From: Bursaphelenchus xylophilus
Taxonomy: Eukaryota; Nematoda; Chromadorea; Rhabditida; Aphelenchoididae
Length of the DNA: 64,000 bases
Assembly (NCBI GenBank): GCA_904066235.2
Contig: CAJFCV020000004.1
Span: 1,488,001 to 1,552,000, forward strand
Direction of reading: 5' to 3'
The notes beneath the pieces were generated by a model. It worked only from the letters and a program-made list of their open reading frames with translations, was not told the origin of the DNA and did not search any database. This document shows positions 40,801 to 64,000 of this stretch, in pieces (position 1 is the stretch's first letter; every line of letters starts with the position of its first letter). A program made the position numbers and the translations under genes.

Positions 40801-40879
40801 GATAAAGCGTGTCAGATCATGCTGTCTCATCAACACTGTTTTTTTCAGGCCCTGTGGACCACGGGTACATTGTTTTTTC

Positions 40880-42568: not shown

Positions 42569-42625
42569 TTTCTGACCGTGACTTCTTGGATTTTGGGATA
42601 GCTGCTGCACAAAGGGCATGGCTAT

Positions 42626-42773
42626 CAGTCTGTCGGGAAAGTAATGAGCACTCTGTCGCATCGAAAATCGCGTCGCCGCCGAGAAAACAAGCTGTTTCGA
42701 TGAGATCAAATACCTTTTCACTGCAGCGACAATATCGGTGCAGTGACATTTTTCTCATTATTTTCCTTACAGA
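42626..42773. mobile_element. CAGTCTGTCGGG-type MITE cut by Helitron-like copy C
   Basis: The left end CAGTCTGTCGGGAAAGTAAT is intact. The right end ATTATTTTCCTTACAGACT breaks at 42773/42774, and its last base plus flank (GTTAATA) resumes at 45142. Confidence 0.75.
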
Positions 42774-45141: not shown

Positions 45142-45259
45142 CTGTTAATAAAATGATTACTATTTTTAGTTCCATAAAAAATACTAGTAGTAATAAGAGG
45201 TAGTTTCTGGCACTAAATTTTGCATCCACTGGAAAAGGGGGGAGGAGCCGGCGCGGGGT

Positions 45260-45800
45260 GCCGTAAATGAGAGAGTGTGGGATTGGAGGAGAGTGGGGAG
45301 AGAGGTGAGGGAATTTTTATGGTATGGTAGTACTGTAAAGATGAGAGAGTGTGGGATTGGAGGAGAGTGGGGAGAGAGGTCAGGGGAATTTTGCGGTCAA
45401 ATTTCAAAAAAGATGAGAGGGTGTCGTAATTGAAAGGACGCGATGAAATTGCGGTAAAAAATGAAAAAGATGAGAGAGTGTGGGATTGGAGGAGAGTGGG
45501 GAGAGAGGTCAGGGGAATTTTGCGGTCAAATTTCAAAAAAGATGCGGGGTGTCGTAATTGAAAGGACGCGATGAAATTGTGGTAAAAAATGAAAAAGGTG
45601 AGAGAGTGTGGGATTGGAGGAGAGTGGGGAGAGAGGTGAGGGAATTTTGCGGTAAAAAATTGAAAAAGGGTGAGAAAGTGGGGAAAGGAGGAGGATTGAG
45701 GGTTGTTGCGCAACCTAGAGGTTGCGGGAGGGCAAGAGGTTGCGGGGTGTTGCGCAACCGAGATGTTATGAATGTTGCGCAACCTAGAGGTTGCGGTAGG
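45260..45800. repeat. Minisatellite plus GTTGCGCAAC palindrome cluster
   Basis: Imperfect tandem units built on GAGAGAGTGTGGGATTGGAG and GAGTGGGGAGAGAGGT alternate with GGAATTTTGCGGT spacers up to about 45690. After that the palindrome GTTGCGCAAC occurs three times with AGGTTGCGG blocks. The long minus-strand frame here (45213-45782) reflects the repeat, not a gene. Confidence 0.7.
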
Positions 45801-46105
45801 TTAAAGAGTTTATGATTTATGTCTGTGATTTTTTTCCGGAAAAAGCGGAAGGATCAAGACTATCAAGTCCATCAATAAAATTTGATGACTCTTCAATAAA
45901 CTTTTCGACTCAATGATGATGAAATAATTTTTTACCCTTTTCAAAAGGATTAAGAATCCAATAACTTTTATTCGTTTATTCAAAAACCAACAGGTTGCGG
46001 TAGGTTAAAGAGTTTATGTGTTTGTGATTTTTTTCCGGAAAAGCGGAAAGATCAAGAGTATGTATGGCCCATGAATAAGAGTTGATGACCCTTCAATAAA
46101 CTTTA
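45788..46105. repeat. Direct repeat pair, about 115 bp, 204 bp apart
   Basis: AGGTTGCGGTAGGTTAAAGA begins both copies (about 45788 and 45992). Both continue through TTTTTTTCCGGAAAA and end at CTTCAATAAACTTT. They lie between the last host transposon and the first Maverick-side gene, so they may belong to the left terminal repeat of the Maverick. Confidence 0.6.
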
Positions 46106-48347: not shown

Positions 48348-48566
48348 GAAGCGCTCAGTATCCGGTGTCGACCAGAGTATGTTTCACTGAAAAATAATAC
48401 AATTATAAGATAACCGAATGAATCGCGACAACAAAAAAAAAAAAAACATTTTTTATTTCTCGACATTTTTTTCTTTGTATTTTTTTTTTGCGGTAAAAAG
48501 ACACAATGCCATAAAAAAGTTTTGTTGCCAATTCCGAGGGATTTTCAAACTAACATTTTCTATTTT

Positions 48567-49883
48567 TTATACGCTGTAGGACATTTGAACGTTTCGGTTA
48601 TTATCGACAAGCATTGTGGCGTCATATTCGATCATAGCAATCAGGCTAAGACCTGATTCCCCGACGGGAGTGTTAAAAGCAAGTCTTAACGAAACAGGTC
48701 CGTTTCTGATCAAGTCCATGCAGTTGTCATCTTCTAAGGTTGTTGTCATATTCAAGACAAAGATCGTAAAACCCTTTTTGTACATTTCCCTATCGATAGT
48801 GCATGAATAATCGGTAAATGCGAAACCCAAAGCCTCATTAAAATCATGATAGGCCCTAATAAAATTATCTTTTGTAAAATCCATTTCATAAGGGATGCAA
48901 GGGAATTGTTGACCATTAGCAGAGAGAGTAACGGATCTTAGGTCACTGTGTACAAAATTAAAGGGAGACTTTTTCGAAGAGTCTTGGACATCAGGGTGAT
49001 TTGTTAAACCAAAAACAACCCTCCGAGGGACCTGGTCTGTACTTAAGGTTGTAACATATTCTTGTCTGCCTTGAGAAATGAAAAAGGATTTCAAATCCGT
49101 TTTCCTGATTGGATAGATTGCGGGATTTTTAATTAAAGTATTGGCAAATCCCATTCCCACACCATCGTTTAAATCCACAGTTTTCACATATAATTTACAG
49201 GAGGTTATGGTAAGACGGAACTGCGTTGCTTGATTTGTCACATTACTCTCAATACAAAACAAATTCTTTGCAGGCGTAATCTCCAACACAAGATCCGTGT
49301 GATTAAGCATTAATTTTGGAACATTTGCGAGCTCGCAGAAAAGCCTTGTTACAAAGTGCGCTTCCTGTCCTCCCACAAACATTGCGCGGCGCTTTTGGAA
49401 CCCCGAGTCCGTTTCATCGTTAAATTTTACACTATCATACCATCCCAGAGAGGAGAGATAAGTTTGACTGGCAGTTGAGGGGAAATTAAGCAAAAGGTCA
49501 AAGTAGGTTCTCCAGCTTTGTAAAGAATTTGAATGGTAAACCTCCTGGCCGTTTATTAGTAGTCTCATATTTTGAATAAAGGTTGCCCCAATGCCTTGGA
49601 TAGGAGCGACCTTATCATTGGCTTCAATATTTATCCAAGTTTGACCATTATCTGATGATTTTTGCATTTTCATCGATGTCATAAGAAAAGTTTTTGTCAA
49701 ATCAACAAAAGAGCTTCCAGGCATTACTTTAAATTGGTAAGGAGTTTCAGAAATTGGGTTTAGGGTTAAATATTCACTAAATTGGGAATGAGACGCTGAT
49801 ATATTTGTTTCGGGGACATTGAAAACATCGAGAGATGACGAAACACTCTCTTCACTTCGAGCATCAATCTTCTTAAACGACAT
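48567..49883 (-). CDS. Major capsid protein, double jelly-roll (Polinton type)
   Basis: A single exon of 438 residues. It fits the Polinton major capsid family in length, all-beta composition and position next to the penton/ATPase/protease set. Sequence features include an N-terminal SEYLTLNPISETPYQF segment and TFIQNMRLLINGQEVYHSN followed by W-R-T-Y-F-DLLLNFP. A late conserved stretch IRAYHDFNEALGF and a C-terminal LIAMIEYDATMLVDNNR complete it. Double-jelly-roll trimers build icosahedral shells in adenoviruses, virophages and predicted Polinton particles. A TATATAAAG box lies 40 nt before the ATG. No frameshift or stop is present. Confidence 0.9.
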   Translation of the reverse strand: MSFKKIDARSEESVSSSLDVFNVPETNISASHSQFSEYLTLNPISETPYQFKVMPGSSFVDLTKTFLMTSMKMQKSSDNGQTWINIEANDKVAPIQGIGATFIQNMRLLINGQEVYHSNSLQSWRTYFDLLLNFPSTASQTYLSSLGWYDSVKFNDETDSGFQKRRAMFVGGQEAHFVTRLFCELANVPKLMLNHTDLVLEITPAKNLFCIESNVTNQATQFRLTITSCKLYVKTVDLNDGVGMGFANTLIKNPAIYPIRKTDLKSFFISQGRQEYVTTLSTDQVPRRVVFGLTNHPDVQDSSKKSPFNFVHSDLRSVTLSANGQQFPCIPYEMDFTKDNFIRAYHDFNEALGFAFTDYSCTIDREMYKKGFTIFVLNMTTTLEDDNCMDLIRNGPVSLRLAFNTPVGESGLSLIAMIEYDATMLVDNNRNVQMSYSV

Positions 49884-49913
49884 GTTAATAATGAAGCAGT
49901 AAGGCCTAATGTT

Positions 49914-49926
49914 CCTTTATATACTG
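49914..49926 (-). promoter_or_regulatory. TATA box of the major capsid gene
   Basis: CAGTATATAAAGG on the minus strand. The first T of TATA is 40 nt from the ATG at 49883. Confidence 0.65.
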
Positions 49927-49927
49927 T

Positions 49928-50389
49928 TTAGTACATGCCAAACACATCGGTCCTTTTCTTCTTTATCATTCCTTTGCGCCCTGATGCCTTTCGTTTCCTT
50001 CCCTCCCCTTTATGCAAATATTTATTTGAAGCCTTGCGCAACAAATTCCGAGCTCCTTGTGAGGTGTTGCGAACCATTATGGTCTTCAAATCTTCACTCT
50101 GTGGTTGAGCCATATCTCCGAGAATACGACTCCCCGTTTCCAAGGCTTCTTTTCCCAAACTCTGCCCCGCAGCTTTCAAGACAGGAGCAAAATAACGCCA
50201 CACATTACCAAGAACTGATCCTAAGCCATGCCCTCTGTGTATTCTTCCCATCCCGCGATGAAACATTTTTCCCGCATAAAAGGGAGATGAAGAAAATCCA
50301 GAACCATATTGAAAACTTCTACCGTATTGAGTCTTGCCCTGAGGCGAAAAGTCGACTATTTTCGAAGAGTCAAAGGGTACAAGAACCAT
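49928..50389 (-). CDS. Basic Gly-rich Polinton protein, probable minor virion component
   Basis: Single exon, 153 residues. The first third is rich in Gly, Ser and aromatic residues, including SSSPFYAGKMFHRGMGR. A middle region follows (GLGSVLGNVWRYFAPVLKAAGQSLGKEALETGSRIL), and a strongly basic tail (GEGRKRKASGRKGMIKKKR) ends the protein. This three-part layout next to the major capsid gene is familiar from other Polintons. Its biochemical role is not established; the basic tail would suit DNA binding or a nuclear signal inside the particle. It has its own TATA box and does not overlap its neighbours. Confidence 0.75.
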   Translation of the reverse strand: MVLVPFDSSKIVDFSPQGKTQYGRSFQYGSGFSSSPFYAGKMFHRGMGRIHRGHGLGSVLGNVWRYFAPVLKAAGQSLGKEALETGSRILGDMAQPQSEDLKTIMVRNTSQGARNLLRKASNKYLHKGEGRKRKASGRKGMIKKKRTDVFGMY

Positions 50390-50418
50390 ATCTAGTGTCC
50401 AAATAAGTCAAAACATAC

Positions 50419-50432
50419 GTATTTATACTTTT
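50419..50432 (-). promoter_or_regulatory. TATA box of the basic virion-protein gene
   Basis: AAAGTATAAATACG on the minus strand, with the first T 39 nt from the ATG at 50389. Confidence 0.65.
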
Positions 50433-50563
50433 ATCTGCTTGCACCTCAACTGTAAGATCTATGACAAAACCAGAATCAAAAGTCTAGTGATTACAAAAAT
50501 TTTTATTGATGATTAACATTTTGTTTTGGACACAACAATATTTTTTTAAAAACCCACAATGTT

Positions 50564-50961
50564 TTATTCGTTGATATCGATCTCCTCAATGACCTTGCTA
50601 CGACATTGACAACATTTGTTCACACGGACCCCAATTAATCCTGAGCAAATGAGGATTAGAAGCTAAAATCGGTATAAAATGATATATTGAATTTGATCTT
50701 ACAGTGAAGAAGAAAGCAACTATTCCAAGGATTAAGCTAGCCAAGGGCCAGAATTTGATGGAGAAGTTCAAGAAACAATTTTCATCGAGCGTCTTTCCAA
50801 CATTATAATTAGAATCCAAGCATATAAGGGGTTCCAGATACCTTAAAAAGGACATTTTAAAAAATCATTAATGCAAAAAATTACCCAAAAGGACGATAAC
50901 AGTCAAAGTTGTTGGGACACGTACAATTGGTCCTCAAGAAATCTTGAATTCTCAGAGACAT
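50564..50961 (-). CDS. Small cysteine-rich single-pass membrane protein, 3 exons
   Basis: Exons 50885-50961, 50703-50841 and 50564-50662 join in phase across introns of 43 and 40 bp and give 104 residues. The N-terminal part has CTC, a further C-YR motif and three more cysteines before the membrane. One long hydrophobic segment (ASLILGIVAFFFTLLILICS) spans the second intron. A CC-Q-C cluster and an acidic tail (VIEEIDINE) follow. The frame is interrupted without splicing, so the exon model is needed to see the complete membrane segment. It is divergent to the ATPase gene and shares its promoter space. It may be a virion or entry-associated membrane protein, by inference only. Confidence 0.65.
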
Positions 50962-50990
50962 TTTGAAGAAACGAGCGTTAGACGGAGCAG

Positions 50991-51006
50991 AAAAAGTATT
51001 TAAGAC
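50991..51006. promoter_or_regulatory. Shared TATA-like element between divergent genes
   Basis: AAAAAGTATTTAAGAC. On the plus strand its first T is 39 nt before the ATPase ATG (51036). The complement TTAAATAC lies about 41 nt before the membrane-protein ATG (50961). Confidence 0.5.
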
Positions 51007-51035
51007 AGAAAAATTTTTGTATTTCGGGCTAAACA

Positions 51036-51665
51036 ATGGCTTTCTCTGCTACGGAGTTGAAACTTCACCTACCATCTGGTCTTTTATTAGGAGGTTCTTC
51101 AGGCAGCGGAAAGACGTCCTTAATGCTCCAAATTATAGAAAATGCGCGTAAAATTTTTGATCCCCCGCCAAAGGATGTGGTTTATTGTTATGGAGAGTTT
51201 GGAGAACATGTTACACATCTAGCAAAACAGGGAATTAAAGTTGTTTCAGGACTCCCGGATGATGAGCTAATAAAAAATTCAAAAAAACCTTTGCTCCTTG
51301 TGTTGGACGACCTGATTACATCGATAGACCCTCAGTACCTCACAGAGCTTTACACAAAGAAGGCGCATCATCAAAACTTGGGTGTGATTACATTGAGTCA
51401 ATCAATTTTCGAACCAAAACTCCGTGTTCCACGCATAAATTCCCAATATATCATTTTAATGAGAGCTCCGAACGCTGAACTTCAAGTACGAACACTAGGC
51501 TCACAAATTTTCCCCGGTAAAAAGGGATTTATGGAAGCATATCGTGATGCAACAAAGGAACAATTCGGCTATCTTTTAATCGATCTACATCCAAAGACAC
51601 CTGTTGATTTGAGACTACGTACAAACATTTTTTCGACAGACTCCATGGTGGTGTACAAAGTATAA
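51036..51665 (+). CDS. DNA-packaging ATPase (FtsK/HerA, A32-like)
   Basis: Single exon, 209 residues. It has a Walker A motif GGSSGSGKTS near residue 20, Walker B LLLVLDDL near residue 90 and a downstream sensor-like segment VITLSQSIF near residue 120. Length and motif order fit the Polinton/virophage packaging ATPases that pump genomes into preformed capsids. The plus-strand genes that follow (minor proteins and protease) form a virion cluster. Its stop codon region overlaps the next gene's TATA box. Confidence 0.9.
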   Translation: MAFSATELKLHLPSGLLLGGSSGSGKTSLMLQIIENARKIFDPPPKDVVYCYGEFGEHVTHLAKQGIKVVSGLPDDELIKNSKKPLLLVLDDLITSIDPQYLTELYTKKAHHQNLGVITLSQSIFEPKLRVPRINSQYIILMRAPNAELQVRTLGSQIFPGKKGFMEAYRDATKEQFGYLLIDLHPKTPVDLRLRTNIFSTDSMVVYKV

Positions 51666-51670
51666 ATAGC
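51657..51670 (+). promoter_or_regulatory. TATA box inside the ATPase 3' end
   Basis: AAAGTATAAATAGC, first T 36 nt before the ATG at 51697. It overlaps the last codons and stop of the ATPase gene. Confidence 0.65.
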
Positions 51671-51696
51671 AAAGAGAACAACCAAAAATCTAGTTT

Positions 51697-52023
51697 ATGA
51701 AGCTTATTCAAAAGCATGTCTTGTTTCTAAAAAAATTGGCGTCGTTCAAGAGTCCTGAAAGTCGAAAATTGTTTTTAAGTTCTTGCTCTCCAGAACAAGT
51801 CCAAGCAATTGTGGAGATCTGTTATAATCTTGTTCAAGGGAACATCCATTTAACTCCCCACCAAAGGAAAAAGTTGTTGCCATACGCTACCTTTATTCGC
51901 GAATTGAGTCGAAAAAGGTCTACCGCCTCGGGGCTTAAACATCTTCAGAAAGGAGCCGGTCTTCCATTTGCTGCCTTAATTATTCCTGCACTACTTGAAG
52001 CGTCGAGATTATTCCTAAAATGA
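51697..52023 (+). CDS. Small basic Polinton protein with hydrophobic C-terminus
   Basis: Single exon, 108 residues. It has an N-terminal helical basic region, then QVQAIVEICYNLVQGNIHL and TPHQRKKLLPYATFIREL. A C-terminal Gly/Ala/Leu-rich hydrophobic end closes it (KGAGLPFAALIIPALLEAS). This pattern recurs in Polintons beside capsid genes, where it may be a minor virion protein; I do not know its biochemical role. The TGA stop overlaps the next gene's ATG (ATGA at 52020-52023), which suggests a two-cistron transcript. Confidence 0.7.
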   Translation: MKLIQKHVLFLKKLASFKSPESRKLFLSSCSPEQVQAIVEICYNLVQGNIHLTPHQRKKLLPYATFIRELSRKRSTASGLKHLQKGAGLPFAALIIPALLEASRLFLK

Positions 52024-52952
52024 AAAAATTTTTCCTAGTGCCAGAGGATTTTTACAATAATATTCTAAACACAACAACCTCTGAAGATTTTTCTCAATCA
52101 AATGTCAACAAGACCTTGCATCAAAAAGGCAATGTGGGCACAAAGTATTTGAAATATAATCAACAAATGCCTGATTATCTTCGCAGAAAAAGAGAGATGG
52201 ATAATAAACCTGTTAAGGTTACTTTTGAAGATGGATCGACAGGGGCCAAAACGGGAAAATCAATCTCAAAAGTAGATGATGATGGAGCATACGGGGAACT
52301 GTTTGCCAAAATTTATAAGGAAGTTCAGAGAACTGCTGGGAAAACTCCGAGGGTTAGAATAAAACGTCGATTTGTCCCAAAACATTCTGAGAACCGGGAA
52401 GAAGAACATGAGCCCAATTCAGAACAAATCCCCGACCTCGAATCAGAACAATCCCCTGACCCCGAAAACGAAGAAGGCCATGAATTTTTTACACCTGTCA
52501 GCCGTAGAACCCCAAAAAATACGACTCCAAAAAGTGAACGCCAACCCTTTACGGGTTGGAAAGCCCTTCCTCCAATCACTCCTTCCAAAGCCTTAGAAAT
52601 TGCAAATTCTTTAAAAGGGAAACTCCGACGGGCCCCAGATACGTTTGGGATATCAGAAAAGGGATTCTTAAAAGATAAAAAAGGAAAAGCAACGACTTTT
52701 AATGCTGAAGCTCTTCTCAAACAGTGGGCCAAGAATCCTGTTGTTGGTGCTGACACCGTTCCCATCGATTTTCTAAATAAAATGTACAAGAATGAAGGTA
52801 CAAAGGATATGATTCATCAACTTATGAGCGGACGGACAAAGAGGGAGAGAAAGCAAGTAGCCCGAGGAGTTTTATTGAAAAGAAGACACTACAGATTCAA
52901 GGTTCTTTCGTGGAAGTATAAAAGCACACCGAAAGTTTTGAAAAGGCATTAA
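52020..52952 (+). CDS. Unidentified 310-residue Polinton protein
   Basis: Single exon. The start MKKFFLVPEDFYNNIL resembles the opening of a recurrent Polinton protein. The middle (residues about 115-190) is a low-complexity Glu/Pro/Ser/Asn stretch. The C-terminal third is basic and helical (WKALPPITPSK..., ...FNAEALLKQWAKNP..., then KRRHYRFKVLSWKYKSTPKVLKRH). The ATG overlaps the preceding stop by ATGA, and its own end contains the next TATA box. It is probably a virion-associated protein. The long opposite-strand frame here is a shadow. Confidence 0.65.
   Translation: MKKFFLVPEDFYNNILNTTTSEDFSQSNVNKTLHQKGNVGTKYLKYNQQMPDYLRRKREMDNKPVKVTFEDGSTGAKTGKSISKVDDDGAYGELFAKIYKEVQRTAGKTPRVRIKRRFVPKHSENREEEHEPNSEQIPDLESEQSPDPENEEGHEFFTPVSRRTPKNTTPKSERQPFTGWKALPPITPSKALEIANSLKGKLRRAPDTFGISEKGFLKDKKGKATTFNAEALLKQWAKNPVVGADTVPIDFLNKMYKNEGTKDMIHQLMSGRTKRERKQVARGVLLKRRHYRFKVLSWKYKSTPKVLKRH
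52912..52927 (+). promoter_or_regulatory. TATA box inside the preceding gene's 3' end
   Basis: GGAAGTATAAAAGCAC, first T 36 nt before the ATG at 52953. It lies within the coding sequence of the 310-residue gene. Confidence 0.65.
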
Positions 52953-53189
52953 ATGGATGTTTCAGTTCCTGAACTTCCCGACTCTTGCAATCGTTACAAC
53001 GAACTCATTTTTTGTGCTGTAAGCATAATTTACACTATTGTTTTGTTTGTATATTTTATTGTGCACGGACTTATAAATGGACGAAAACGAAATCCGAAGA
53101 ATAATCAAGCTGACGCCCTCGCTAGCTTCGAGCTTCTTAGACGTGCTTTCGATAGACCAAGTCAGTCTTCCCCCCAAGTACCCGTTTAG
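52953..53189 (+). CDS. Small type-III-like membrane protein overlapping the protease
   Basis: 78 residues. A short polar N-terminus with one Cys precedes a transmembrane segment (IFCAVSIIYTIVLFVYFIV). A basic patch (GRKRNPKN) and a polar tail follow. The gene begins at the base after the stop of the preceding gene, and its last 113 nt overlap the protease start in another frame. Constant spacing to a strong TATA box supports its start. Function unknown; a virion membrane role is a guess. Confidence 0.6.
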   Translation: MDVSVPELPDSCNRYNELIFCAVSIIYTIVLFVYFIVHGLINGRKRNPKNNQADALASFELLRRAFDRPSQSSPQVPV

Positions 53190-53514
53190 TGTCATATACA
53201 ATCTCGATAAGAGCTATGAGCCAGGTTCACATTGGGTCGCTTTGTACGGTGATTCTCAAAAAAGAGTGTTCTATTTCGACAGTTTTGGAGATCCGCCACC
53301 ACACGAAATTACAAGTAAATTTCCAAATACAAATTACTGGCAAAAGCCTGTCCAATCCTTGTTTTCATCAGCCTGCGGGCATTACTGTATTGCATATTTG
53401 ATCCTCAAAAATAGAGGTTTTTCGGATACATCAATTTATGGTACACTCTCCCATATTAGTGAGAAACAACTGAGGAATGTGATTAGACGCCTCGAGGGAA
53501 AATGGGGAGTATAA
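53077..53514 (+). CDS. Adenain-like cysteine protease
   Basis: 145 residues. The adenovirus-protease fold signature is visible: catalytic His in GSHWVALY (about residue 49), the acidic residue in FYFDSFGDPP, and Gln plus Cys in QSLFSSACGHYCIAYL (about residues 91-106). Polinton proteases of this class (family C5) are thought to mature capsid proteins. The start lies inside the membrane-protein gene and no TATA box is seen at the 36-40-nt position. It may therefore be expressed by leaky scanning or re-initiation from the upstream mRNA. Confidence 0.85.
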   Translation: MDENEIRRIIKLTPSLASSFLDVLSIDQVSLPPKYPFSVIYNLDKSYEPGSHWVALYGDSQKRVFYFDSFGDPPPHEITSKFPNTNYWQKPVQSLFSSACGHYCIAYLILKNRGFSDTSIYGTLSHISEKQLRNVIRRLEGKWGV

Positions 53515-53520
53515 AAGTGA
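53506..53520 (+). promoter_or_regulatory. TATA box at the protease 3' end
   Basis: GGAGTATAAAAGTGA, first T 36 nt before an ATG at 53546 and 55 nt before the ATG at 53565. It overlaps the protease stop codon. Confidence 0.65.
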
Positions 53521-53564
53521 TAGTTCTGGTTAGAAAAGACATTTAATGTCTAAAAAAAAACGTC

Positions 53565-53815
53565 ATGTCTTCTTCTGAGGAGGGTGGTTCGTCTTTTATT
53601 GGTATCCCCACTGATCTGGGTCAGAAAACGTAAGTATCTTTTAAAACTTTTTGTTTATTTCAAGTACTACCGTGTATCCGACGCCCTCGGGGCCATTCCT
53701 CTCAGTCCAAATAGTCCCAAACGAATCTTGGGCCATGTATGTATTTTACAATAATGGATCTTCACGTCATTTGATAACAATAATTTATTTACAAGAAGAA
53801 ATGTATGATTTATAA
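53565..53815 (+). CDS. Small two-exon protein with an upstream A9 run (possible frameshift)
   Basis: Exons 53565-53629 and 53665-53815 join across a 35-bp GT-AG intron to give 71 residues. The product has a Ser/Glu/Gly-rich start and a Thr/Pro-rich middle with no known motif. The TATA box predicts a start at 53546 instead. That ATG reads ten codons through a run of nine A and then stops; with one A fewer it would continue in the frame of this gene. So the real start may be 53546 with slippage, a mutation or a base-count error. Function unknown. Confidence 0.45.
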
Positions 53816-53845
53816 TATTATATAAAAAAAGTAATAAATAAATAA

Positions 53846-56800
53846 TCATTGTACATAACCGAATGGAAGAATAGTGACGTCGTCATTAGCAATATATCCC
53901 TTATCACAAACACCTTGATAAACTTTTTGTTTATCATTTGTAGTGAAAACTCCAACGTTCTTAATGGCGCGAATCTCGTCGTAGACAGCTGTTAAAGATT
54001 CTTGATATCCATCCAAAATAACTCGGTCAACCAGACCAGAAAAGGAGTCATAGTTAATGATCGAACATGTTTTTCCGTTTAAACTTATTCCGCGGAGTTT
54101 CAGATCATATTCCAACTCCCCAGTCACAACGTCCCTATATTTTAAGGCATATTGCTTGGCACCAAGTCCAAGAAACTCGAGGATATCCTTCCCTTTCTTC
54201 TCCAACTCCATATCTCCAAGGTAGTCTCCAGTCTTCAGAGGATACTCACCCGAAGCCTTATCAAAGGTGAAGATCAGACTATCTGAAAGATTGTTGTTGT
54301 TTTGCATGCACACCTACCTGTATCATAATACAGAATTTTTTCGCCTTTACTCTCCACCTGTTCAAAGAACGAGTAGAGATAGGTCCGGGCTTGGGCCGTG
54401 ATCCATGTAGGGATCAACAGATTTGAAAACTCCAGCGGGGTTGTGAATTCTTCAGAGGTCTTGAAGCTAATGTATATTTTATCATCCTCCACCAAATCAA
54501 CACTTTTGATCACATTGGTGGAGTTGTTGAGTATCTTGTAGAACTCGGTGGCAGTGGAACATACCACAGTCTAAAAATCAGATTACAAAAAATGTGCTCA
54601 TTCGTTACCTTGGGAAGATCCGTTCTCATACTCAATTTTCCCCATAAACTATTGAGATACAACTTGGAGATTGTTCGGAGAGCAGGATTTTTAGACCATT
54701 TGCCCTCGTCAATTTCAAACCCATATCTTCGCTTAATTTCCTCCTTGAATTGTTGATTTTTTGCCTCGTCATCATAAGGTTTTCCCGAAGCCTCAAGCTT
54801 GGTTTTTAAAAACCTATATACATAGGGTTTGAATAGGGCGTCCGACATTTCATTAAATTTCAAAATTTCGAATATTTTCTTGACTTTGTATCCCTTCCTG
54901 AGGGCATTTTTAAGTTCAACTGATGTTGTAGTTGTCAAAAAGGACCTCTCTTCCTCTCCATGTTCGCATACCAAGTTTTTGTTGTAGCTGGCTCCTTGAT
55001 TCTCCTGAGCACATGAATAACATAGAGGGTAGATTAACTTTTTGTTACAGGTAATCGGGAGGACAGGAAGCGCGAGATTCTGAGGAGGAAGAACAACAAC
55101 TTTATACAACCCATCATGCTCAATGTCTGCTTCAGATTCCCAATTCACATCATAATTTTGAATGTATAAGGGTGTAGGTATCCCTATGGGCATTGCATAG
55201 GTCGCCATGATATAAGGGTAAAGACTCTGAATGTCTGTGTATCCTATTCCTTTCCTTTCATTAGCGTTAAATTTGAGACATTGCGTAGCAGTTCGTCCAC
55301 CATGGAAGGCATCTCGGAGTCTGATAGAACCCGCCGAAAAGAATCTCTGCTCAAAATAAGCAGACATTTCGTCGTCCTCTTGTAACATTTTCCTAATCTC
55401 ACATTCCTTATAAACAAGGACTTCAAATCCCAAATCTTCGAGAGCTTTTACTCTTTTTTCTGTTTTTAGTAACCCTTCTTTTACAGATATTCCAGAGGGC
55501 AAACGGTCTCCGAGATCTTTACAACAATCTTTGCACCCGTGATAATAGCAACCATTTAGCTCCAATGCCAAAGGTTTCTCATTCTGCCTTTCCAAGAACC
55601 CATCTATCGAGATTTTGTGGACCTTTCCGTCGATGACAATCTCAACTCTATAAAAATTTTTTATTATTTTTGTTTTTGTTCTAACCTTTTTTCCCCATTA
55701 TCCCTAAATTGGAGATCTTTCATGTCCTTTTTGTCTCTCAGCCATCTGAAGAAAAGTAATGCCACTTTTGATTGTTGTATAAAATCTCCAAACCCAATAG
55801 TAGGAGTTCTGATGACGGTCCTTTCCTCCAGGTCTAACATTCGCCAGATTCTCAGACATGAAGAAGCAAGGGTTGGACAGTAGTATAATACATCGTCCGT
55901 AGGACAATGCTCTTGAATCATACTTCTAAACTTTACTAAGGCATGCAGCAGGATTCTGGTGTCTTGAATTCCATAATCGTACAACTGTTGTTTGAAGTTG
56001 AAAGGTTTATCCCGATTTTCTTCGTAAAAGTCAAGCAACTCTTGTCTTTTGTTCGCATTCAAACTGTCTGGACAATAATATTGAATATCCGGATGATGAG
56101 GGAGGTCAGCTTGATAGTGAGCAGGAGTGTTAAAGAGATGGGGGAATGTCCCCTTGGAATCAACTTCAAGACCCAAAGCCTTTGGCATCGATCCGAGAGG
56201 CATTTGGAGGTAATTAAAAGAGTCTGTAAATTTGACCTCTGTGAAAGCTCCAGCAGTTCCAGCGACATTAATTGTGTAATATTTGGCCCCTGTCAAGATC
56301 ATATCGATCTTGGAGATGGCTGAAAAAAATATTTGAATTTGTTGCAATGACCTACTCTTGTCTTTGTTTATTTCTTTCATGAGCAAATGACAATCGAATT
56401 TGCCTCCGAAATGTGCTATTGCGAGGACTGGTATCTTTTTTGCGCAACTTTTTAGATACTCCCATACGTCTTTGACAACATTTTCGGAGTCACCATGAGG
56501 AATACTAAACGTCTTTAGATGCTCTCCACATTTTTCACATGGAGTCTCTTCGTCTCTCCATTTACCGTTTGCCATACAAGTTGTACAGGCCTTGTGAATT
56601 GATGCGAAATTTACAGAGTGTTGACTTCTGTTCGAGTTATCGTTCAAAGGAGTGGTGGTAGTTTCAAAGTCAAAGGCACACAAGTTGTAGTTGACAGGTT
56701 TTTTAGGCACAGGTATGGGGTTGACGTAACACTCACTCCCGACTTCGTGAAAGCCTCGGCATGACACGCAAAAACTTAATCCACATAAATGCCCATTCTT

Positions 56801-58709
56801 TTTTGAATATGCCTGATCACATTTGTCACATTTTTTGTAATAAGAGCAAATGTTTTTCTTCAGATGGTGTTCATAGCAATCCTTGTTTAAAAACTTTTTT
56901 GTACATGCGGCGCACTTCTTTTCAAAGCCATCATCCTTACAAGGAAAGTCGTTTCCTATACGACAACACTTGGTGCATTTTTTCTGGCATCTAGCTGTAT
57001 GATCGATTGATTCTCTCATCAATTTCCGACAACTGAAACATAAATTGGAGAAAGATCTGACTCCGAAGAAAGCAGTGGGACTCCATATGGAGTCGTAGTG
57101 ATTGTCGTGGTAATAAAGCATAATTGGAGTTTTTACATCCAAAATCTCATCCTTCTCCAGTTTCGGGTAACTCCATCCGTGCTCAAAAGATCTCCGATCA
57201 AAAACTATAATTTTATGTGGAGCGGCTTCTGGGTATTTTTGGTCCATGAAAGCTTCCCAGAGGCCAACCGTGAACTCGATGCTTTCCTTTCCTGTTAAAC
57301 TTGCAGCCTTAAAATGTTTGTATGCTTCTTTTAGTTCAGCACATTCTGTTGGTTTTGTAAATTTTCGAGCCTTGTACAATTTTCGTTCAGATTTTTTATG
57401 GCCCGGAAGATCCTTGGTAGTTGCAAGCCTAGAGATGTTTATGGATACAGGAAGACAATCATTCTTCTGAGTGTTAACATGGAAAATGCCTGTACTTGTC
57501 TCCAAAAAGGATCTAGTTGTCTGTCGTGTCGGGGGAGCGCCACCGATTCTGCCATATAGAACTGTTATGTTGAGTACAAAGGGTTTCCCCAACAAGCTTG
57601 GAGTTTTGGATGACTGTGCAATTTTGAATAATTTTGTGTAAAGATGTTTAGGATCGAAAACATTTCTTTTGGAGAAATGATTTAGAGGTCTCGTTAAGTT
57701 ATCGGACGATACTCTCACACCTACATACATGGCCCTTTCTGATCCTCCTCTTTCAACTAGAAATTAAATTTGATTTTTTTTTTAAAGTGTTTACCTTCTC
57801 TGAGGCACTCGTTGACTGATTGTTCTACAAGCTGATTGAAACGTTTTTCAAAATCACTCATGTTTTCACTAATGTGTATATGGTACTTTTGTTCTCTTGA
57901 GTAGCATTTAAATCTCTCTGACGTTTTAACTCGAGAGGCTCCGACACGGAAGAATTGTATTCTATAATAAAATTTTTTGACTTTTTTATACGATTATTGC
58001 ACTTACCCCCGACCTTTTTGAGGGAGAGGTCTGAAAAAATCGTCAAATTCAGGGAGGGTATCTGTGCCTCCTAAAAACCTTGCCATGTCAAAGCACGGAT
58101 CAGAAAAATTTTCCTCGTCAAGATCATCTAGAGAAATATTGGTTTCTGAGAATTCCTTGTAAAAGTCGAGATCTTCCAAAAGTTTTTGCATCATCATTTC
58201 GCGGGGATTATGTGAAGAACTCGATGGGATGTTTGAGAGATCATCACTAAAAAATGAATCAGAGAAAAAAACAAGAGATACCTTTCGAGTAGCTGCATGT
58301 ACTGCATGAGTTCTGCGGGCCCTAAGACCTTAAAGTCGGGCCTGAGAATGTCTTCAAGGGACAATGTATTATTTTGTTCTTGGGTTGTCATTTTTATTGA
58401 TTCTTCATGATTGGAGTTTGTCTGCTCTTCCATAATGGTTTCCGAGCATTGGCGAAAATTGGGAGCCGATCTATGATAATCGACGGCCGGGTCTCTTATA
58501 TTCGATAAGTCCCTCAGGGGTGTAAGACGCCTTCTCTTGGAAGGTGGATGATTGGAGTTTGTCTGCTCTTCCATAATGGTTTCCGAGCATTGGCGAAAAT
58601 TGGGAGCCGATCTATGATAATCGACGGCCGGGTCTCTTATATTCGATAAGTCCCTCAGGGGTGTAAGACGCCTTCTCTTGGAAGGTGGTTGTTCTATTTC
58701 GTTAGTCAT
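53846..58709 (-). CDS. Protein-primed family B DNA polymerase with N-terminal extension
   Basis: Exons 58282-58709, 58007-58246, 57795-57961, 55686-57756, 54609-55647, 54318-54570 and 53846-54282 join in frame (introns 35-45 bp) to 1,544 residues. Without the extension, the ATG at 57861 gives 1,288. The first 256 residues carry two 47-residue repeats with an SKRRR nuclear signal, then an acidic region. The core has a cysteine-rich, zinc-finger-like block (about 56730-57050). Exonuclease motifs follow: FDFET (near 56675), HFGGKFD (near 56400) and YGIQD (near 55970). The polymerase motifs are DIQSLYP (near 55225), KLYLNSLWGKL (near 54650) and YYDTDS, which is split by the last intron. All catalytic residues are present. 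Polintons use such polymerases for their own replication. Alternative: the extension is a separate gene ending at 58003. Confidence 0.85.
58407..58688 (-). repeat. Two identical-looking 141-bp coding repeats
   Basis: Units 58407-58547 and 58548-58688 duplicate a 47-residue segment containing PPSKRRRLTPLRDLSNIRD and ending EEQTNSNH. The period is a multiple of three and the units look identical, so the duplication is recent and keeps the frame. Confidence 0.9.
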
Positions 58710-58857
58710 CTAAAAAATTTTTTTCTTTATTAATTGAATTAAGAAAGGTACGATAATAACACGCCAACAGTTCACGAAAAATATATGATAATAAGAGGGA
58801 ATCAAAACATTGTAAATAGGTGTAAGGATAAGGGGAACATTTAACGATAAAAGGGGG

Positions 58858-59650
58858 TCAGTCGGATTTTTCTTCCTCGAAGACTTTTTCAATCTGTTTC
58901 TGTAGTTTACGAAGTGTATTCTTGCTCACATCTGTTGCCCTGTAAATGTCCATTAGTGTGTATTCTTCTCTGCACATGTAGTATAAAGTTGCAGCGATAG
59001 TTGAAAGAAGAGGATTTCTGAACATTTTTTATTTTTTAGATTGATATATGTTACCCCGTCAGCACACTTTTATTTTGAACTGTATGAACCATTTTTACTA
59101 GTTGAGCATGTCTTTTATAGGAGAGCCCTAGATAAGCGCAAAATCTGCTTGCATATTCCTCGACTCCAATCGGTTTGTTTGCATTGGCAATATTTCCGGG
59201 GATCTGTTTGAAACATTTATAGATCTTCTTTATGTTAACCGCCGACAATTCTGAGATTTCTAAAAAGGGAAAAATGAAACGCTTGGGTCATTGATAACCT
59301 TTGAAACTCCGTGGAACCCCATTTTTACGACATGTTATGTACAAGCAAGTGGCTAAAACATGTTTGTCACTAGTGTTTTTTACATAGTCTTTGATTCTGT
59401 CAAATAGGATTGAAACATCCTTTTCAATGCTTGAGGGCAGATGTCCTTTACTGGTCATCTCTTGTAATATTTTTGTATTCTCTTCAGACATTTTTGATGT
59501 AGGTGTTGTGGTATAAAAAGGCACATCATTTAAGACGTCAAAGATCCGTTCGCCGACAACGACGCCACACTCTGGGCAAATCAGATCTCCACATCTAAAA
59601 TCTTCTATCAACTCCGCCTCTGTATGAAAGGGGCACGTCAAACGCTCCAT
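58858..59650 (-). CDS. TFIIB-like transcription initiation factor, 3 exons
   Basis: Exons 59299-59650, 59055-59259 and 58858-59017 join in phase across introns of 39 and 37 bp to give 238 residues. The N-terminus has a zinc ribbon, C-P-F-H ... C-P-E-C with the TFIIB-like GDLICPECGVVVGERIFD run. A linker and a first cyclin-like repeat follow (HVLATCLYITCRKNGVPRSFKEISELS). A second repeat has the same layout (STIAATLYYMCREEYTLMDIYRATDVSKNTLRK). Both repeats end in a TLR/ELS-type helix as in TFIIB/TFB. At 238 residues it is shorter than cellular TFIIB (about 310). It is divergent to the penton gene. The expected role is recruiting RNA polymerase II to promoters, perhaps the element's own late genes. 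Confidence 0.85.
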
Positions 59651-59652
59651 GT

Positions 59653-59664
59653 CACTATAAAAAC
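59653..59664 (+). promoter_or_regulatory. TATA box of the penton-like gene
   Basis: CACTATAAAAAC, first T 37 nt before the ATG at 59693. It lies 3 nt upstream of the divergent TFIIB-like ATG. Confidence 0.65.
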
Positions 59665-59692
59665 AAAACGGTTAGTGATTTGTATGTTAGAT

Positions 59693-61186
59693 ATGCGTTC
59701 GTCATTTTTTATTGTGCTTCCCAGCAACGATCCTAGTAACACCTTTGGGAAAAATACCCCTGCTGATTTCAAAATCGTGTTGCCTAAACCCTTGACATTT
59801 GACGCCCCCTATTTATGTGGTTTACAGAGCATTGTCTATCCTCATTCATGGGCTTCTATCGGGACCTTGGATGGGCAATATATCGATCTTACAACTGCTT
59901 ACGCAATCTTGAGAATACACATCCCTAAAGGGAGTTTTAATACAATTGAGAGTTTGGTGACATATTTGAATTCGGTGGTTCAAGAAGAGCTTGAGAAGGG
60001 AGAGGGGCGTCGTAAAAGAAATGCTCCGGAAGAGCCAAAGGTTTTAAAAAAGGGTAAAAAGATGGATGTCGCATTAAAGAAGTCTGTGAAGACTGATGAG
60101 GGAAATCCAATCCCTTTGACAAAAGCCGCGGTACAAAATGTTTCTCTTCCAAACGTTTCTAATACTAATATTGCTGATGTTGGTACTAGAAATAATCCGG
60201 GGGGTATTCGAAATACTACTAGAGATACTGCTAAAAGTACTACATTTCCTCATGGTGCTGCTCAACCTAGCCCTTTGCCTCCTTCTAATCCGCCTGTTTT
60301 ACAACCGTCTACTCTTAGCAATCCAATTACTACTAGCATAGCTACTCCATCTACAACAACACTAACAGGGGCACAACATACCGCTCCCTCTGCATCCTCA
60401 AAGGCCTCGTCATCACACCTTTCCAATAATATACAAAAAGGCAATTTATCTCTCGAAAATGAAAAAAAGGCCCCGAATAACAACAACTCCCAATCTGCCA
60501 AGAACAAAAGCGGCGCGACCTCCTTCTCCCCGGTTTCGACCGACCATCTGCCTACGCACAATCCTGCGATTGGTTTTATGGATGTTGAGTATCCCAGAAT
60601 GTCACGCCCCCTTGCCCTGGTTGGCACGAGACGTATTGAGACTGAACCTTTGAAGGTCCCCGTCTATGAATTGAACCGCCCTCATAAAACGGTGAAAGAG
60701 CCAATCAAAGCAATGTATAACCTGAGACCTTTAAGATCTTCCGATTTCGCAATATTATACGACAAGAAAATTCAGCGTGTGAAAACACATGTTAATCATG
60801 AAGTAGTGGGGAAGATTGAGTTCTCACCCCAATTAAAGTACACTCTAGGGTTTTCGGATTATGGGGAAATTGTAAACGAAACTGTCGCTCCATTCTCTCC
60901 TGATCTCAGTGGTGGCATCAAGAACCTAGCCGTATACGTTGACGATTTAGTTGAACAGGTTATTGTCGGCAGTTTTCAAACACCTATGCTTCGTATGGTT
61001 ACAGTAAAAGGCAAACCGGGGGATGTTGTGGAACAGATTTACGATCAACCGTTAATGATACCTGTTAGAGCAAGGGAGATCTCTGTATTACATGTTCAAA
61101 TTAGAACTCTAGATGGACGTTTATGCCCTTTTGATTATGGCATTACTTGTTTAACTTTATGTTTCAAACCTCTGGCGGTTTTTTAA
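59693..61186 (+). CDS. Penton-like minor capsid protein with a long inserted low-complexity region
   Basis: 497 residues from the ATG at 59693. An in-frame ATG at 59624 overlaps the TFIIB-like gene and the TATA box and is rejected. The N-terminus (SSFFIVLPSNDPSNTFGKNT, then FKIVLPKPL and LQSIVYPHSWASI) matches the Polinton minor capsid/penton pattern. So does the C-terminus (NLAVYVDDLVEQVIVGS, LRMVTVKG, RTLDGRLCPFDYG). Between about residues 100 and 288 is an insert, first basic and then rich in Ser, Thr, Pro, Asn and Ala, likely disordered and exposed. Penton proteins occupy the capsid vertices. The insert could be a surface or attachment domain, by inference. Confidence 0.85.
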   Translation: MRSSFFIVLPSNDPSNTFGKNTPADFKIVLPKPLTFDAPYLCGLQSIVYPHSWASIGTLDGQYIDLTTAYAILRIHIPKGSFNTIESLVTYLNSVVQEELEKGEGRRKRNAPEEPKVLKKGKKMDVALKKSVKTDEGNPIPLTKAAVQNVSLPNVSNTNIADVGTRNNPGGIRNTTRDTAKSTTFPHGAAQPSPLPPSNPPVLQPSTLSNPITTSIATPSTTTLTGAQHTAPSASSKASSSHLSNNIQKGNLSLENEKKAPNNNNSQSAKNKSGATSFSPVSTDHLPTHNPAIGFMDVEYPRMSRPLALVGTRRIETEPLKVPVYELNRPHKTVKEPIKAMYNLRPLRSSDFAILYDKKIQRVKTHVNHEVVGKIEFSPQLKYTLGFSDYGEIVNETVAPFSPDLSGGIKNLAVYVDDLVEQVIVGSFQTPMLRMVTVKGKPGDVVEQIYDQPLMIPVRAREISVLHVQIRTLDGRLCPFDYGITCLTLCFKPLAVF

Positions 61187-61188
61187 AT

Positions 61189-61559
61189 TTATTGTTTAAT
61201 AAATAATAATTGCAAGTTAAAGGGAGTATTCGTGAAAGTTCTCGTACAGCTGTAAGCATGACAAAAGGCTCTAATAACATCTGAAGGCTTGAAATCTTTT
61301 AATGGCAATGCCTCCACCTTAAACTCATCGAGATCCATCTCCCCAGAAATGTGCATAGTAATGTAATTGAAACCTATAACAATATGATAATTCAAGTTAG
61401 TCTCCAACCTTTTGAGTATCTGTCTACAAGTTCTTTTACAAGCCTTTCAATATTTCGAACAGTTGCATTCCGGGGTTTCTTTGTCTCGTACGAAGCAGAA
61501 TATGAAAAATAGTTACCGATTGAACTTTCTGATGTTGAGGTACAGTTAAACAACTCCAT
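61189..61559 (-). CDS. Unidentified 111-residue protein, 2 exons
   Basis: Exons 61409-61559 and 61189-61373 join across a 35-bp intron in phase. The N-terminus is Ser/Thr-rich. A basic helix (RNIERLVKELVDRYSKG) and a segment with DLDEFKVEALPLKDFKPSDVI follow. No signal peptide, membrane segment or known motif is seen. A strong TATA box 40 nt upstream places it with the virion/late-type genes. It is convergent with the penton gene and divergent from the integrase. Confidence 0.6.
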
Positions 61560-61574
61560 GATAATATTTTTTCT

Positions 61575-61586
61575 ACTATAAAAAAG
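61575..61586 (+). promoter_or_regulatory. TATA box of the integrase gene
   Basis: ACTATAAAAAAG, first T 36 nt before the ATG at 61613. Confidence 0.6.
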
Positions 61587-61589
61587 AAA

Positions 61590-61602
61590 CATTTATATAC
61601 TG
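61590..61602 (-). promoter_or_regulatory. TATA box of the 111-residue gene
   Basis: CAGTATATAAATG on the minus strand, first T 40 nt before the ATG at 61559. The sequence is nearly the same as the box of the major capsid gene. Confidence 0.65.
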
Positions 61603-61612
61603 TGCACAGATC

Positions 61613-62644
61613 ATGAGCATTTTAAAAAGCTTTCGTGATCTAGACGATCCCTCTGCATACACAGGGCCTTCTCGTTTGGCAAAAACAAAGAAGCTAAAAT
61701 ACGAAGATGTTCGGCGGATCTTGGCACGTGATTTTTCGTATAGTCTCCATAAACCGAGACGTCGAAGATTCAATCGTTTGAAGACTATCCCCTCAGGGTT
61801 CATGACGGATGTGCAAATGGATTTGGCGGACTTTCAGGCTCTTTCAAAATACAACAAGGGCTACAAATATTGTTTATTGGGGGTTGACGTAATGTCGCGC
61901 AGGTTCTTTGCTTGTCCTGTTCTCTCCAAAAAGTCTTCGGATATGCTCAAAGCATTCGAATGTATGTTCAGAAAAATGCCGCAAATCCCCCAGGTGATTT
62001 TTACGGATAAGGGCAAAGAGTTTGTTGCCAAAGATGTCAAAAACTTTTTGGATTCAAAAAACTTGGAGCTTCGCCATGGAGAAAACGCGGAGATCAAAGC
62101 AGCAGTTGCAGAGAGAGGAATTAGAACTTTAAAATCTCGTTTATACAAATACTTTTCCGCACAAAACACTTTGAATTGGATTGGTGTGCTGGACAAGTTT
62201 ATTAACGCCATCAACAATACTGTGTGTAGGAGCACAGGCTTGAAACCTAAGGATATTAATAGCTCAAACTGGTTCGAAATTTGGAAAAAAATTTATCAAT
62301 CTGATTCCCCAAAAGCCAAAGAGCCCAAGTTCAAGGTGGGGGATTGGGTCAGGATTTCACGGCAGGCCGGGGACTTTGATAAGGGCTACTGGAATACCTT
62401 TACAGATGAAATTTTCAAGATTACAAAAATTAATAGAACTAACCCCATTACTTTTGAACTTGTTGACTCGGAAGGCGAACCGATTGAGGGCCGATTTTAC
62501 ACCGAAGAACTTTCGCTGACTTCTGAAGATACTGAATATCGAATCGAAAAGATTCTCAAAACACGATTGCGTAAGGGCATTAAAGAAGGGTTTGTCAAAT
62601 GGATTGGATTTCCCTCATCAAAAAATTCTTGGGTTCAGCTATAA
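61613..62644 (+). CDS. Retroviral-type DDE integrase with C-terminal chromodomain
   Basis: Single exon, 343 residues. The N-terminal part is basic, with a FSYSLHKPRRRRFNR segment as in Polinton integrases. The catalytic triad is visible: D in VQMDLADF (about residue 68), D in VIFTDKGKEF (about 139) and E in NAEIKAAVAERGIRTLK (about residue 160). A linker with FKVGDWVRIS follows, and a chromodomain at the C-terminus (YRIEKILKTR...GFVKWIGFPSSKNSWV). This enzyme joins element ends to host DNA, and the chromodomain may guide target choice. No lesion is seen. Confidence 0.93.
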   Translation: MSILKSFRDLDDPSAYTGPSRLAKTKKLKYEDVRRILARDFSYSLHKPRRRRFNRLKTIPSGFMTDVQMDLADFQALSKYNKGYKYCLLGVDVMSRRFFACPVLSKKSSDMLKAFECMFRKMPQIPQVIFTDKGKEFVAKDVKNFLDSKNLELRHGENAEIKAAVAERGIRTLKSRLYKYFSAQNTLNWIGVLDKFINAINNTVCRSTGLKPKDINSSNWFEIWKKIYQSDSPKAKEPKFKVGDWVRISRQAGDFDKGYWNTFTDEIFKITKINRTNPITFELVDSEGEPIEGRFYTEELSLTSEDTEYRIEKILKTRLRKGIKEGFVKWIGFPSSKNSWVQL

Positions 62645-62712
62645 TTCCAAATTTACAAAAGTATGTTTATTTATAGCACGATTCCTTAAAAAAATATATA
62701 TATATATGACAA

Positions 62713-63553
62713 TTAAAGTTTTCTCTGCTTCAGAGGCATTTTCGCTCTTTTCGGTGTGACATTTTCCTTGTTTTTCTCATCGTAGTCCGGGAGTTTATTT
62801 ACGTAATGGGGAAAGACGACTTCAGTCATCTTCCATTCGCCATTTATACATTGGCAGTTCAATTGACGAGAGAAATTTTTGATTCCCAGAACCGTGATCA
62901 TAGAATTCGGAGTTATTTTGTGATGCACATCGTCGGCATTATGAGGAAATTTCTCCACATTTTTAAGATCATAAACATGTCCTTCTCGTAGAGGCGAGAA
63001 CTTTGAGACGTTATTATGTGCATTTACATATATTACAATCGGTCTTTTGAACATGTCAGCTCCATTTATTACCATATCCGGACCTCCGTCAGCAGGTCTG
63101 TTGTTCTTCCAAATTCTCAGAATGATAACCGTCTCCGTATTCCTAAAAATCTTGTATTATACAAATCGTAACTTACTTATCTTCTTGACGTGCTTTTTGG
63201 CACATTTCATAAAACTCGCTTCTCTTTGTGGTTCCTCCAAGATGTTTTACAACAGTAGTGTCATCAACAAAAATTACCTTTTCGGCCAAATTTTTCTGGA
63301 CCTCTGTATTATCCAGCTTCAGAAGTGTGCCCGGATATATTGCCTCACCTCCCATATTAAAATCAGGGAACGGCCATTCTAAAGTGATGTGATTGTTAAA
63401 GCAATCAGTTGCACAAATTGTCCTGGACTCCTCGCTGTTGAAGGTCTTGAGGACCTGGACGACTACAGTTTTGGATGTTGTCGTATCCATCATTGGGTTG
63501 ATCAGAAAAGAGGCGCGCGTCCTCTCTTCCTCCGTCATAATAGGCGCAGCCAT
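62713..63553 (-). CDS. Unidentified 268-residue protein, 2 exons
   Basis: Exons 63177-63553 and 62713-63142 join across a 34-bp GT-AG intron in phase. The ATG at 63553 is preferred over one at 63577 because the latter lies within a palindrome. The protein is mostly beta-like and soluble, with [15 protein letters not shown] and [14 protein letters not shown] lysine-rich tail closes it ([12 protein letters not shown]). OB-fold-like ssDNA binding is one possibility, but I cannot support it from motifs. It has no late-type TATA box and is divergent to the gene at 63643. Confidence 0.6.
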
Positions 63554-63557
63554 ATCG

Positions 63558-63605
63558 CGAGGAGACAAAATAAGCAAATGAGGTCATTTGCTTATTTTCG
63601 CCTCG
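63558..63605. promoter_or_regulatory. Perfect 15-bp inverted repeat between divergent genes
   Basis: AAAATAAGCAAATGA (63567-63581), spacer GG, then TCATTTGCTTATTTT (63584-63598). An outer CGAGG/CCTCG pair adds to it. It sits between the starts at 63553 (minus) and 63643 (plus), where an operator or cruciform would affect both genes. Confidence 0.65.
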
Positions 63606-63642
63606 TGGAGTTTAGCCCCAATCTTTTTCTAGCTCCGCCCTC

Positions 63643-64000
63643 ATGATTTCGATTACCCTTAACGAATATATCCGGAAGACATACGCCGTGTCCATTGATG
63701 GGGTCGATATCAATACTTTGAAGTTAATAAATTTTAGTGTAAGTTTTTAATATCATATATTTTATGTTTTTTTTTTTTAGAATTTTTACATGAAATTCCG
63801 TGGGCGTAAGATTTGTCGTCTGAAACCTGTTCAAAGCAAATGCGGTGAGAAGCTGTGGTTCTTTTCGCTGTACGATAAAGATGATGGATGTGAGAGCGAC
63901 ACTAGATGTCTCTTTGACGGAGATGAAATTCAAATTTATTTAACACCTGTTACCAAACGTCACACTGAAGTCCCTCAATCTGATCTTATTTTTTATACAA
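63643..64000 (+). CDS. Unidentified gene, 2+ exons, cut by the window edge
   Basis: Exon 1 is 63643-63738 and exon 2 begins at 63781. They join at phase 0 across a 42-bp intron ending in a T-run plus AG. At least 105 residues are seen, starting MISITLNEYIRKTY. The rest includes RGRKICRLKPVQ and a CGEKLWFFSLYDKDDG segment with an acidic loop. No known motif. No TATA box is seen at the usual distance, so it belongs with the non-late group. The 3' end lies outside the window. Confidence 0.6.

Follow-up and report, generated by a model that had tools for sequence, protein, structure and literature searches.

A TATA box set at the virion genes of nematode Mavericks, three families of which encode TFIIB or TBP

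How are the capsid genes of a Maverick transcribed in its animal host? The question is raised directly by a stretch of 64,000 nucleotides from Bursaphelenchus xylophilus (GCA_904066235.2, contig CAJFCV020000004.1, positions 1,488,001 to 1,552,000 of the forward strand), hereafter the window, which contains an element of ~20 kb that is a Maverick by its terminal inverted repeats, B-family polymerase, rve integrase and double-jelly-roll capsid. An earlier note on this DNA had proposed that the element runs an early/late program of its own, in which an encoded TFIIB-like protein is produced early and turns on the virion genes from TATA boxes at a fixed spacing. Comparison of the window's element (family A) with three diverged families of the same genome (B, C and D) leads us to a modified answer: the virion genes share TATA boxes in all four families, and they are probably, although with some reserve, a late set with short leaders that is transcribed by host RNA polymerase II (Pol II), with one core promoter factor encoded by the element in families A, C and D.

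TATA boxes at the virion genes

Boxes were sought with the word TATWWAW, and distances were counted from the first T of the box to the A of the ATG. The starts are the ATGs of open reading frames (ORFs), not mapped 5' ends, and both the word and the 30-60 nt range were chosen after viewing the upstream regions of family A and then those of families A-D. The genes with a box in the window are as follows.

48567..49883, minus strand: major capsid protein (MCP), whose structure model (pLDDT 83) matches double-jelly-roll capsids; box at 49917..49923, minus strand, 40 nt before the ATG, just beyond the stop of the basic gene
49928..50389, minus strand: basic virion-type protein, its role taken from composition only, with homologues in B, C and D at 36-40%; box at 50421..50427, minus strand, 38 nt before the ATG
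51036..51665, plus strand: packaging ATPase, with P-loop matches under the Pfam cut-offs and homologues in B, C and D; box at 50997..51003, plus strand, 39 nt before the ATG
51697..52023, plus strand: 108-residue gene, with homologues in B, C and D at 37-52%; box at 51661..51667, plus strand, 36 nt before the ATG, over the ATPase stop
52953..53189, plus strand: 78-residue gene, with homologues in C and D by BLASTP and a start in B set by eye; box at 52917..52923, plus strand, 36 nt before the ATG, within the 310-residue gene
59693..61186, plus strand: penton-like gene, with homologues in B, C and D at 38-51%, in pieces; box at 59656..59662, plus strand, 37 nt before the ATG (59693)
61189..61559, minus strand: 111-residue gene, defined by reading frames and likely with one intron; box at 61593..61599, minus strand, 40 nt before the ATG
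61613..62644, plus strand: rve integrase with a chromodomain-like end (PF00665 above cut-off, PF00385 under it); box at 61577..61583, plus strand, 36 nt before the ATG
ATG at 53565 (region 53510-53900), plus strand: small ORF, absent from the earlier note's list and probably with one intron; ninth box at 53510..53516, plus strand, 55 nt before the ATG

All eight starts that the earlier note had named indeed have a box 36-40 nt upstream, a frequency that dinucleotide shuffles do not reproduce (mean 0.07 of eight in 2000 shuffles, maximum 2). Seven of its eight distances were as given, that of the basic gene being 38 nt rather than 39, and by coordinates two boxes (those of the 78-residue and 108-residue genes), rather than several, lie inside the 3' end of the preceding gene. 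Its description of the polymerase, TFIIB-like, 268-residue and 63643 genes as box-less also holds, as the seven other starts of the element (310-residue, protease, TFIIB, 171/268-residue, polymerase, 63643 and 62713) have no box at 36-40 nt, where shuffles give 0.09, nor anywhere at 30-60 nt. When all ATG triplets on both strands are considered, a box at 36-40 nt precedes 14 of the 562 in 48401-63900, a count that covers the named starts, compared with 6 of 1125 in the host DNA at 1-40000. The word alone is no promoter mark, because only nine of the 25 copies of the stricter STATWWAW in 48400-63900 lie 30-60 nt before the nine listed starts, and 16 lie elsewhere. Within family A, the 60 nt upstream are identical in 7/7 loci for the MCP, basic, ATPase and penton genes, and in 6/7 and 4/5 loci for the 108-residue and integrase genes, respectively, the differing base being outside the box.

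The genome searched comprises 78.25 Mb in 8 contigs (labelled C1, C2 and so on), and searches with the capsid, ATPase and integrase revealed the three diverged families at these places.

Family B: C2 near 1.29 Mb
Family C: C1 near 1.12 Mb and C5 near 8.43 Mb (two copies)
Family D: C2 near 2.30 Mb and C6 near 10.63 Mb (two copies)

The capsids are 46-52% identical, and the copies of C and D are decayed, since their capsid genes carry stops or are split. Seven genes are shared (MCP, basic, ATPase, 108-residue, 78-residue, penton and integrase), and a box stands 30-60 nt upstream of 26 of their 28 starts, compared with 2.34 +/- 1.43 in shuffles (1000, maximum 8); in this count the ATG of the C MCP is the one nearest to an unclear start, and the B penton and B 78-residue starts, like that of the D protease, were added after the upstream listing and before counting. 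Family B has the box at all seven. A TATA set made up of the virion genes of Mavericks A-D is therefore well supported.

The genes of the window's element that lack a box, together with its left end, are listed below.

52020..52952, plus strand: 310-residue gene, overlapping the 108-residue gene
53077..53514, plus strand: adenain-like protease (PF00770, E 0.0027, under cut-off), overlapping the 78-residue gene
53846..57861, minus strand: DNA polymerase B in several open pieces, two of them with PF03175 above cut-off, the gene likely carrying introns
58003..58709, minus strand: 171/268-residue gene, with a KRRR stretch and an acidic second part
58858..59650, minus strand: TFIIB gene, ~238 residues by reading, with introns at ~59260-59298 and ~59018-59054
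45176..45986, no strand: left terminal inverted repeat, a 97% inverted match with ~64018-65222

Polymerase, TFIIB and regulator-type genes behave differently from the virion-type genes. In an early-type set chosen by gene identity (7 starts, or 9 with the TBP genes described below), a box was found at 1/7 starts versus 26/28 virion-type starts (P 1.1e-4), and at 1/9 when the two TBP genes are included (P 1e-5). Eight starts of unclear class were kept apart; three of them have a box, and one of the eight, the "165" start of family C, proved to lie inside the C TBP gene, as an internal ATG. Transcription in the nucleus is indicated by the introns of three genes, those for the polymerase, TFIIB and the D TBP. 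A splice-acceptor rule, TTTT(C/T)AG within 30 nt of the ATG, was tried as a mark of the early-type genes and abandoned as too weak (3/7 early versus 1/28 late, P 0.019); before TFIIB, the acceptor-like stretch is the penton box in reverse complement.

The 310-residue and protease genes each overlap the preceding gene, and none of their eight starts over the four families has a box, an absence that is not unusual in itself because shuffles give 0.26. Both overlapping pairs, 108/310-residue (window 51697-52952) and 78-residue/protease (52953-53514), are kept across families, the loci compared outside the window being L038, L017, L034, L035 and L071. Very short leaders let ribosomes skip the first ATG. 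Between the 108- and 310-residue starts, there is a single ATG over four families, where base composition predicts ~24 and shuffling of synonymous codons gives 4.6 +/- 1.4 (P 0.014), and an internal methionine is absent from all four 108-residue proteins (A-D). For the 78-residue/protease pair, the intervening ATGs number 1 in A, 1 in C and 0 in D (counted in D from four bases past the first ATG), with none seen by eye in B. This scarcity of ATGs fits leaky scanning, in which the second protein of each pair would be reached by ribosomes that bypass the first ATG.

With regard to the remaining genes, the MCP model resembles the double-jelly-roll capsids of PBCV-1, Sputnik and mavirus, and neither the MCP nor the basic protein has a Pfam match. 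The ATPase and the protease, both with Pfam matches under cut-off, are conserved in B, C and D. The putative penton takes its name from the earlier note, and its structure model (pLDDT 43.5) is too poor for use. No credible Pfam family was found for the 171/268-residue gene, which has TTTTTTAG immediately 5' of its ATG and contains a perfect 141-nt tandem duplication (58407-58688, minus strand), the repeated stretch including the KRRR motif.

The coordinates 49914..61602 of the earlier note proved too narrow for the element, whose inverted repeats (97% identical) lie at ~45176-45986 and ~64018-65222, the right partner being beyond the window and carrying additional tandem copies; no clear target-site duplication was found at the ends read. 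Family A has seven genomic copies, six with an equal top capsid score and one with a slightly lower one. The integrase is full length in five, and the other two have only diverged fragments (68% identity, with stops; C1:2751283-2751495 and C5:1544817-1545029); the right end may differ in these copies. Integrase relatives at 33-36% were observed at C6:12233467-12234447 and C4:3284497-3285261, in very A/T-rich loci with asparagine-rich proteins, which represent a different kind of element. To the left of the Maverick, direct and inverted diverged repeats (I1-I4, D6, D7) cluster at window positions 40000-43000, and for one of them (41414-41995) an inverted match at 80% lies on the right side of the Maverick. 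The genome contains 48 SL1-like RNA matches at E <= 0.001 and none above the Rfam gathering score; together with the capsid relatives described below, they indicate a nematode.

TFIIB in family A and TBP in families C and D

The TFIIB-like protein was correctly recognized by the earlier note as a TFIIB homologue. Its zinc ribbon and first cyclin repeat are above the Pfam cut-offs and it matches human TFIIB at E 4e-21, while the second cyclin repeat, under cut-off and weakly similar to TFIIB structures (E 0.14), is readable through two short GT-AG introns. Both introns share, by reading, position and phase with those of the host TFIIB gene at C5:4540100-4541300, so the gene looks like a captured animal gene; in one copy, a single-base insertion lies within intron 2. 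All seven family A copies have TFIIB. A genome search that used the protein itself as well as Pfam models for TFIIB and the zinc ribbon recovered these copies, the host loci, two ribbon matches under cut-off and one relic, a lone stretch at C5:2175523-2175663 outside the seven copies with 103 nt at 88% identity to the window. No TFIIB was found in families B, C and D by these searches, which a too diverged or intron-split gene could escape.

A genome search for TBP found three host loci and, in addition, a TBP gene in both copies of family C and both copies of family D, positioned between the ATPase and basic genes in C and beside the capsid gene in D. The C TBP ORF matches PF00352 (2.8e-34, two stretches) and solved TBPs down to 1.4e-24, and the D gene gives two genomic matches above cut-off per copy; both proteins keep both repeats. 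They are ~40% identical to each other and 33-44% identical to host TBP1, compared exon by exon, and the four intercalating phenylalanines, at the positions we take to be theirs, were seen by eye in both. By frame reading, C and D share one intron position that is missing from host TBP1, and the second intron of the D gene is at an intron position of host TBP1. This pattern suggests a single TBP capture before C and D parted, and TFIIB and TBP alike, with introns that match host positions, look as though they were captured from an animal host. The protein database yielded one match for TFIIB, one for the C TBP and 24 capsid relatives, the latter without DNA context and including nematode-named records; no relatives were found in public viral contigs when searched by TFIIB and by capsid.

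In family B, neither TBP nor TFIIB was found by the genome searches. Two other genes of these families may be recorded here. A full-length, intronless innexin ORF (PF00876, E 2.6e-84) lies between the polymerase and protease of family B (C2:1291473-1292615; L070:3574-4716, plus strand), and upstream of its polymerase family D has a frame of 192 residues (L069:4254-4832, minus strand) that is strongly acidic and has no Pfam match, possibly a regulator.

Readers of the boxes

As B, C and D keep their boxes (34-59 nt before the ATG) without a TFIIB having been found in them, TFIIB was rejected as the general key to the boxes, and the earlier note's statement that this protein turns on the virion genes is not supported as it stood; the note itself had named related Mavericks that keep the spacing without TFIIB as an outcome that would count against it. 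Its broader suggestion, of a TATA machinery provided in part by the element, gains from the TBP of C and D and loses from family B, in which neither factor was found.

We propose, with the reserve already expressed, that the capsid, packaging and integration genes would constitute one transcriptional set, each unit starting at a TATA box, and that the leaders would be ~5-15 nt long, as estimated from the usual distance between TATA box and transcription start. Host Pol II would read the boxes, assisted by a captured factor, which is TFIIB in A and TBP in C and D. Expression would begin with the polymerase and factor genes, most of which are box-less and several of which have introns. The action of the encoded factors on the boxes, the timing, the leader length and the use of Pol II are all inferred from sequence. 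The most economical account of the presence of TBP and TFIIB is that these three families contribute to the machinery by which their boxes are read.

Several observations weigh against this proposal. Family B retains boxes at 7/7 starts with neither factor found, and an encoded factor is thus not strictly required for box retention. Compared with human TFIIB, the viral protein is ~50 residues shorter in the region that joins the ribbon to the first repeat (reader/linker), which is needed for start-site choice, so it may not work as a normal TFIIB. The tight spacing of 36-40 nt is seen only in family A, distances over all families being 34-59 nt; the box of the C ATPase, at 71 nt, misses the range, and the D integrase has none within 30-60 nt. 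The division between early-type and late-type genes is also not perfect: a box lies 41 nt before the D 171-like gene, although it is the penton box in the opposite orientation; TATTTAA lies 61 nt before the C TBP gene, one base out of range, so that a slightly wider range would give 2/9; and the 111-residue gene of A combines a box with an intron.

The spelling of the boxes bears on who reads them. In a test with 5000 permutations of the family labels within genes, over 26 boxes, those taken with one flank base on each side proved more alike within families than expected (7.46 versus 6.57 +/- 0.16 of 9, P 0.0002), as did the seven-base box alone (P 0.001). Between families, by contrast, two boxes resemble each other no more when they belong to the same gene than when they belong to different genes (6.14 versus 6.28). 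The boxes of A and B are mostly GTATAWAA, those of D are TATAAAW without a preceding G, and TATTTAA occurs in 5/6 boxes of C (P 0.002 against its own A/T make-up, tested post hoc). Spelling thus changes with the element and not with the gene, which is the trace expected of an element-specific reader. Tentatively, the captured TBP (C, D) or TFIIB (A) may have co-evolved with the box spelling into a private TATA code, each factor preferring its own virion promoters over those of the host; we see this as a possible extension of the proposal, decidedly less secure than the proposal itself.

In the strongest competitor, the boxes are read solely by the host's own TBP and TFIIB; the captured factors would be cargo or serve another role, and the spelling would reflect drift or composition. 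TATA boxes are ordinary Pol II promoter elements, family B manages with boxes and no factor found, and the flank similarity within families may be compositional. On the other hand, core promoter factors of two kinds, spread over three of the four families, would be odd cargo, and composition fails to explain the TATTTAA of family C under the post hoc test given above; we consider this explanation rather unlikely, while taking it seriously. It is improbable, in our judgement, that the viral factors act as decoys in a host shut-off, impeding transcription of host genes, with the late genes profiting through strong TATA promoters: a TFIIB that lacks most of the residues joining its ribbon to the first repeat would suit such a role, but the TBPs of C and D keep both repeats and look like working DNA binders. 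Finally, an origin of the boxes by chance, as matches to a short A/T word (52 TATWWAW copies on both strands of 48400-63900), is refuted by 8/8 starts against 0.07 and by 26/28 against 2.34 at 46-52% capsid identity.

Known systems and significance

The elements share inverted terminal repeats, a B-family polymerase, an rve integrase and a double-jelly-roll capsid with animal Mavericks/Polintons, and differ in having TFIIB (A) or TBP (C, D) and a shared TATA box set. We know of no report of this combination in animal Mavericks, and none of TFIIB or TBP in them appeared in the titles and abstract openings covered by our literature search, outside which many subscription papers lie. The adenovirus major late promoter provides a TATA-driven precedent for capsid-gene transcription by host Pol II; it serves one long spliced late unit in a virus that encodes no TBP or TFIIB, whereas here many short units are proposed.

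TFIIB is encoded by large DNA viruses. As for TBP, one survey gives it in 59% of mirusvirus genomes and in 0% of Nucleocytoviricota (PMC10132985), and a green alga study describes TBPs as sporadic in elements of putative mirusvirus origin (PMC10675990). Such viruses resemble the present elements in encoding a host-type initiation factor and differ in being large, the elements here being ~20 kb with one factor each and no RNA polymerase found. Similarly, a study of mavirus-like endogenous virophages (EMALEs) reports a promoter motif that is common to many genes and differs between element types, interpreted as matching giant-virus transcription factors (PMC8547959). The type-specific motif over many genes is shared, and the difference is that the elements here carry TBP or TFIIB themselves and have no known helper.

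If the encoded TBP and TFIIB act on the elements' own TATA boxes, Maverick expression could be put to a direct test in worms, and a single genome would offer several lineages in which a core promoter factor has diverged along with the sites it recognizes. A private TATA code, if true, would be a natural orthogonal core-promoter system within an animal genome.

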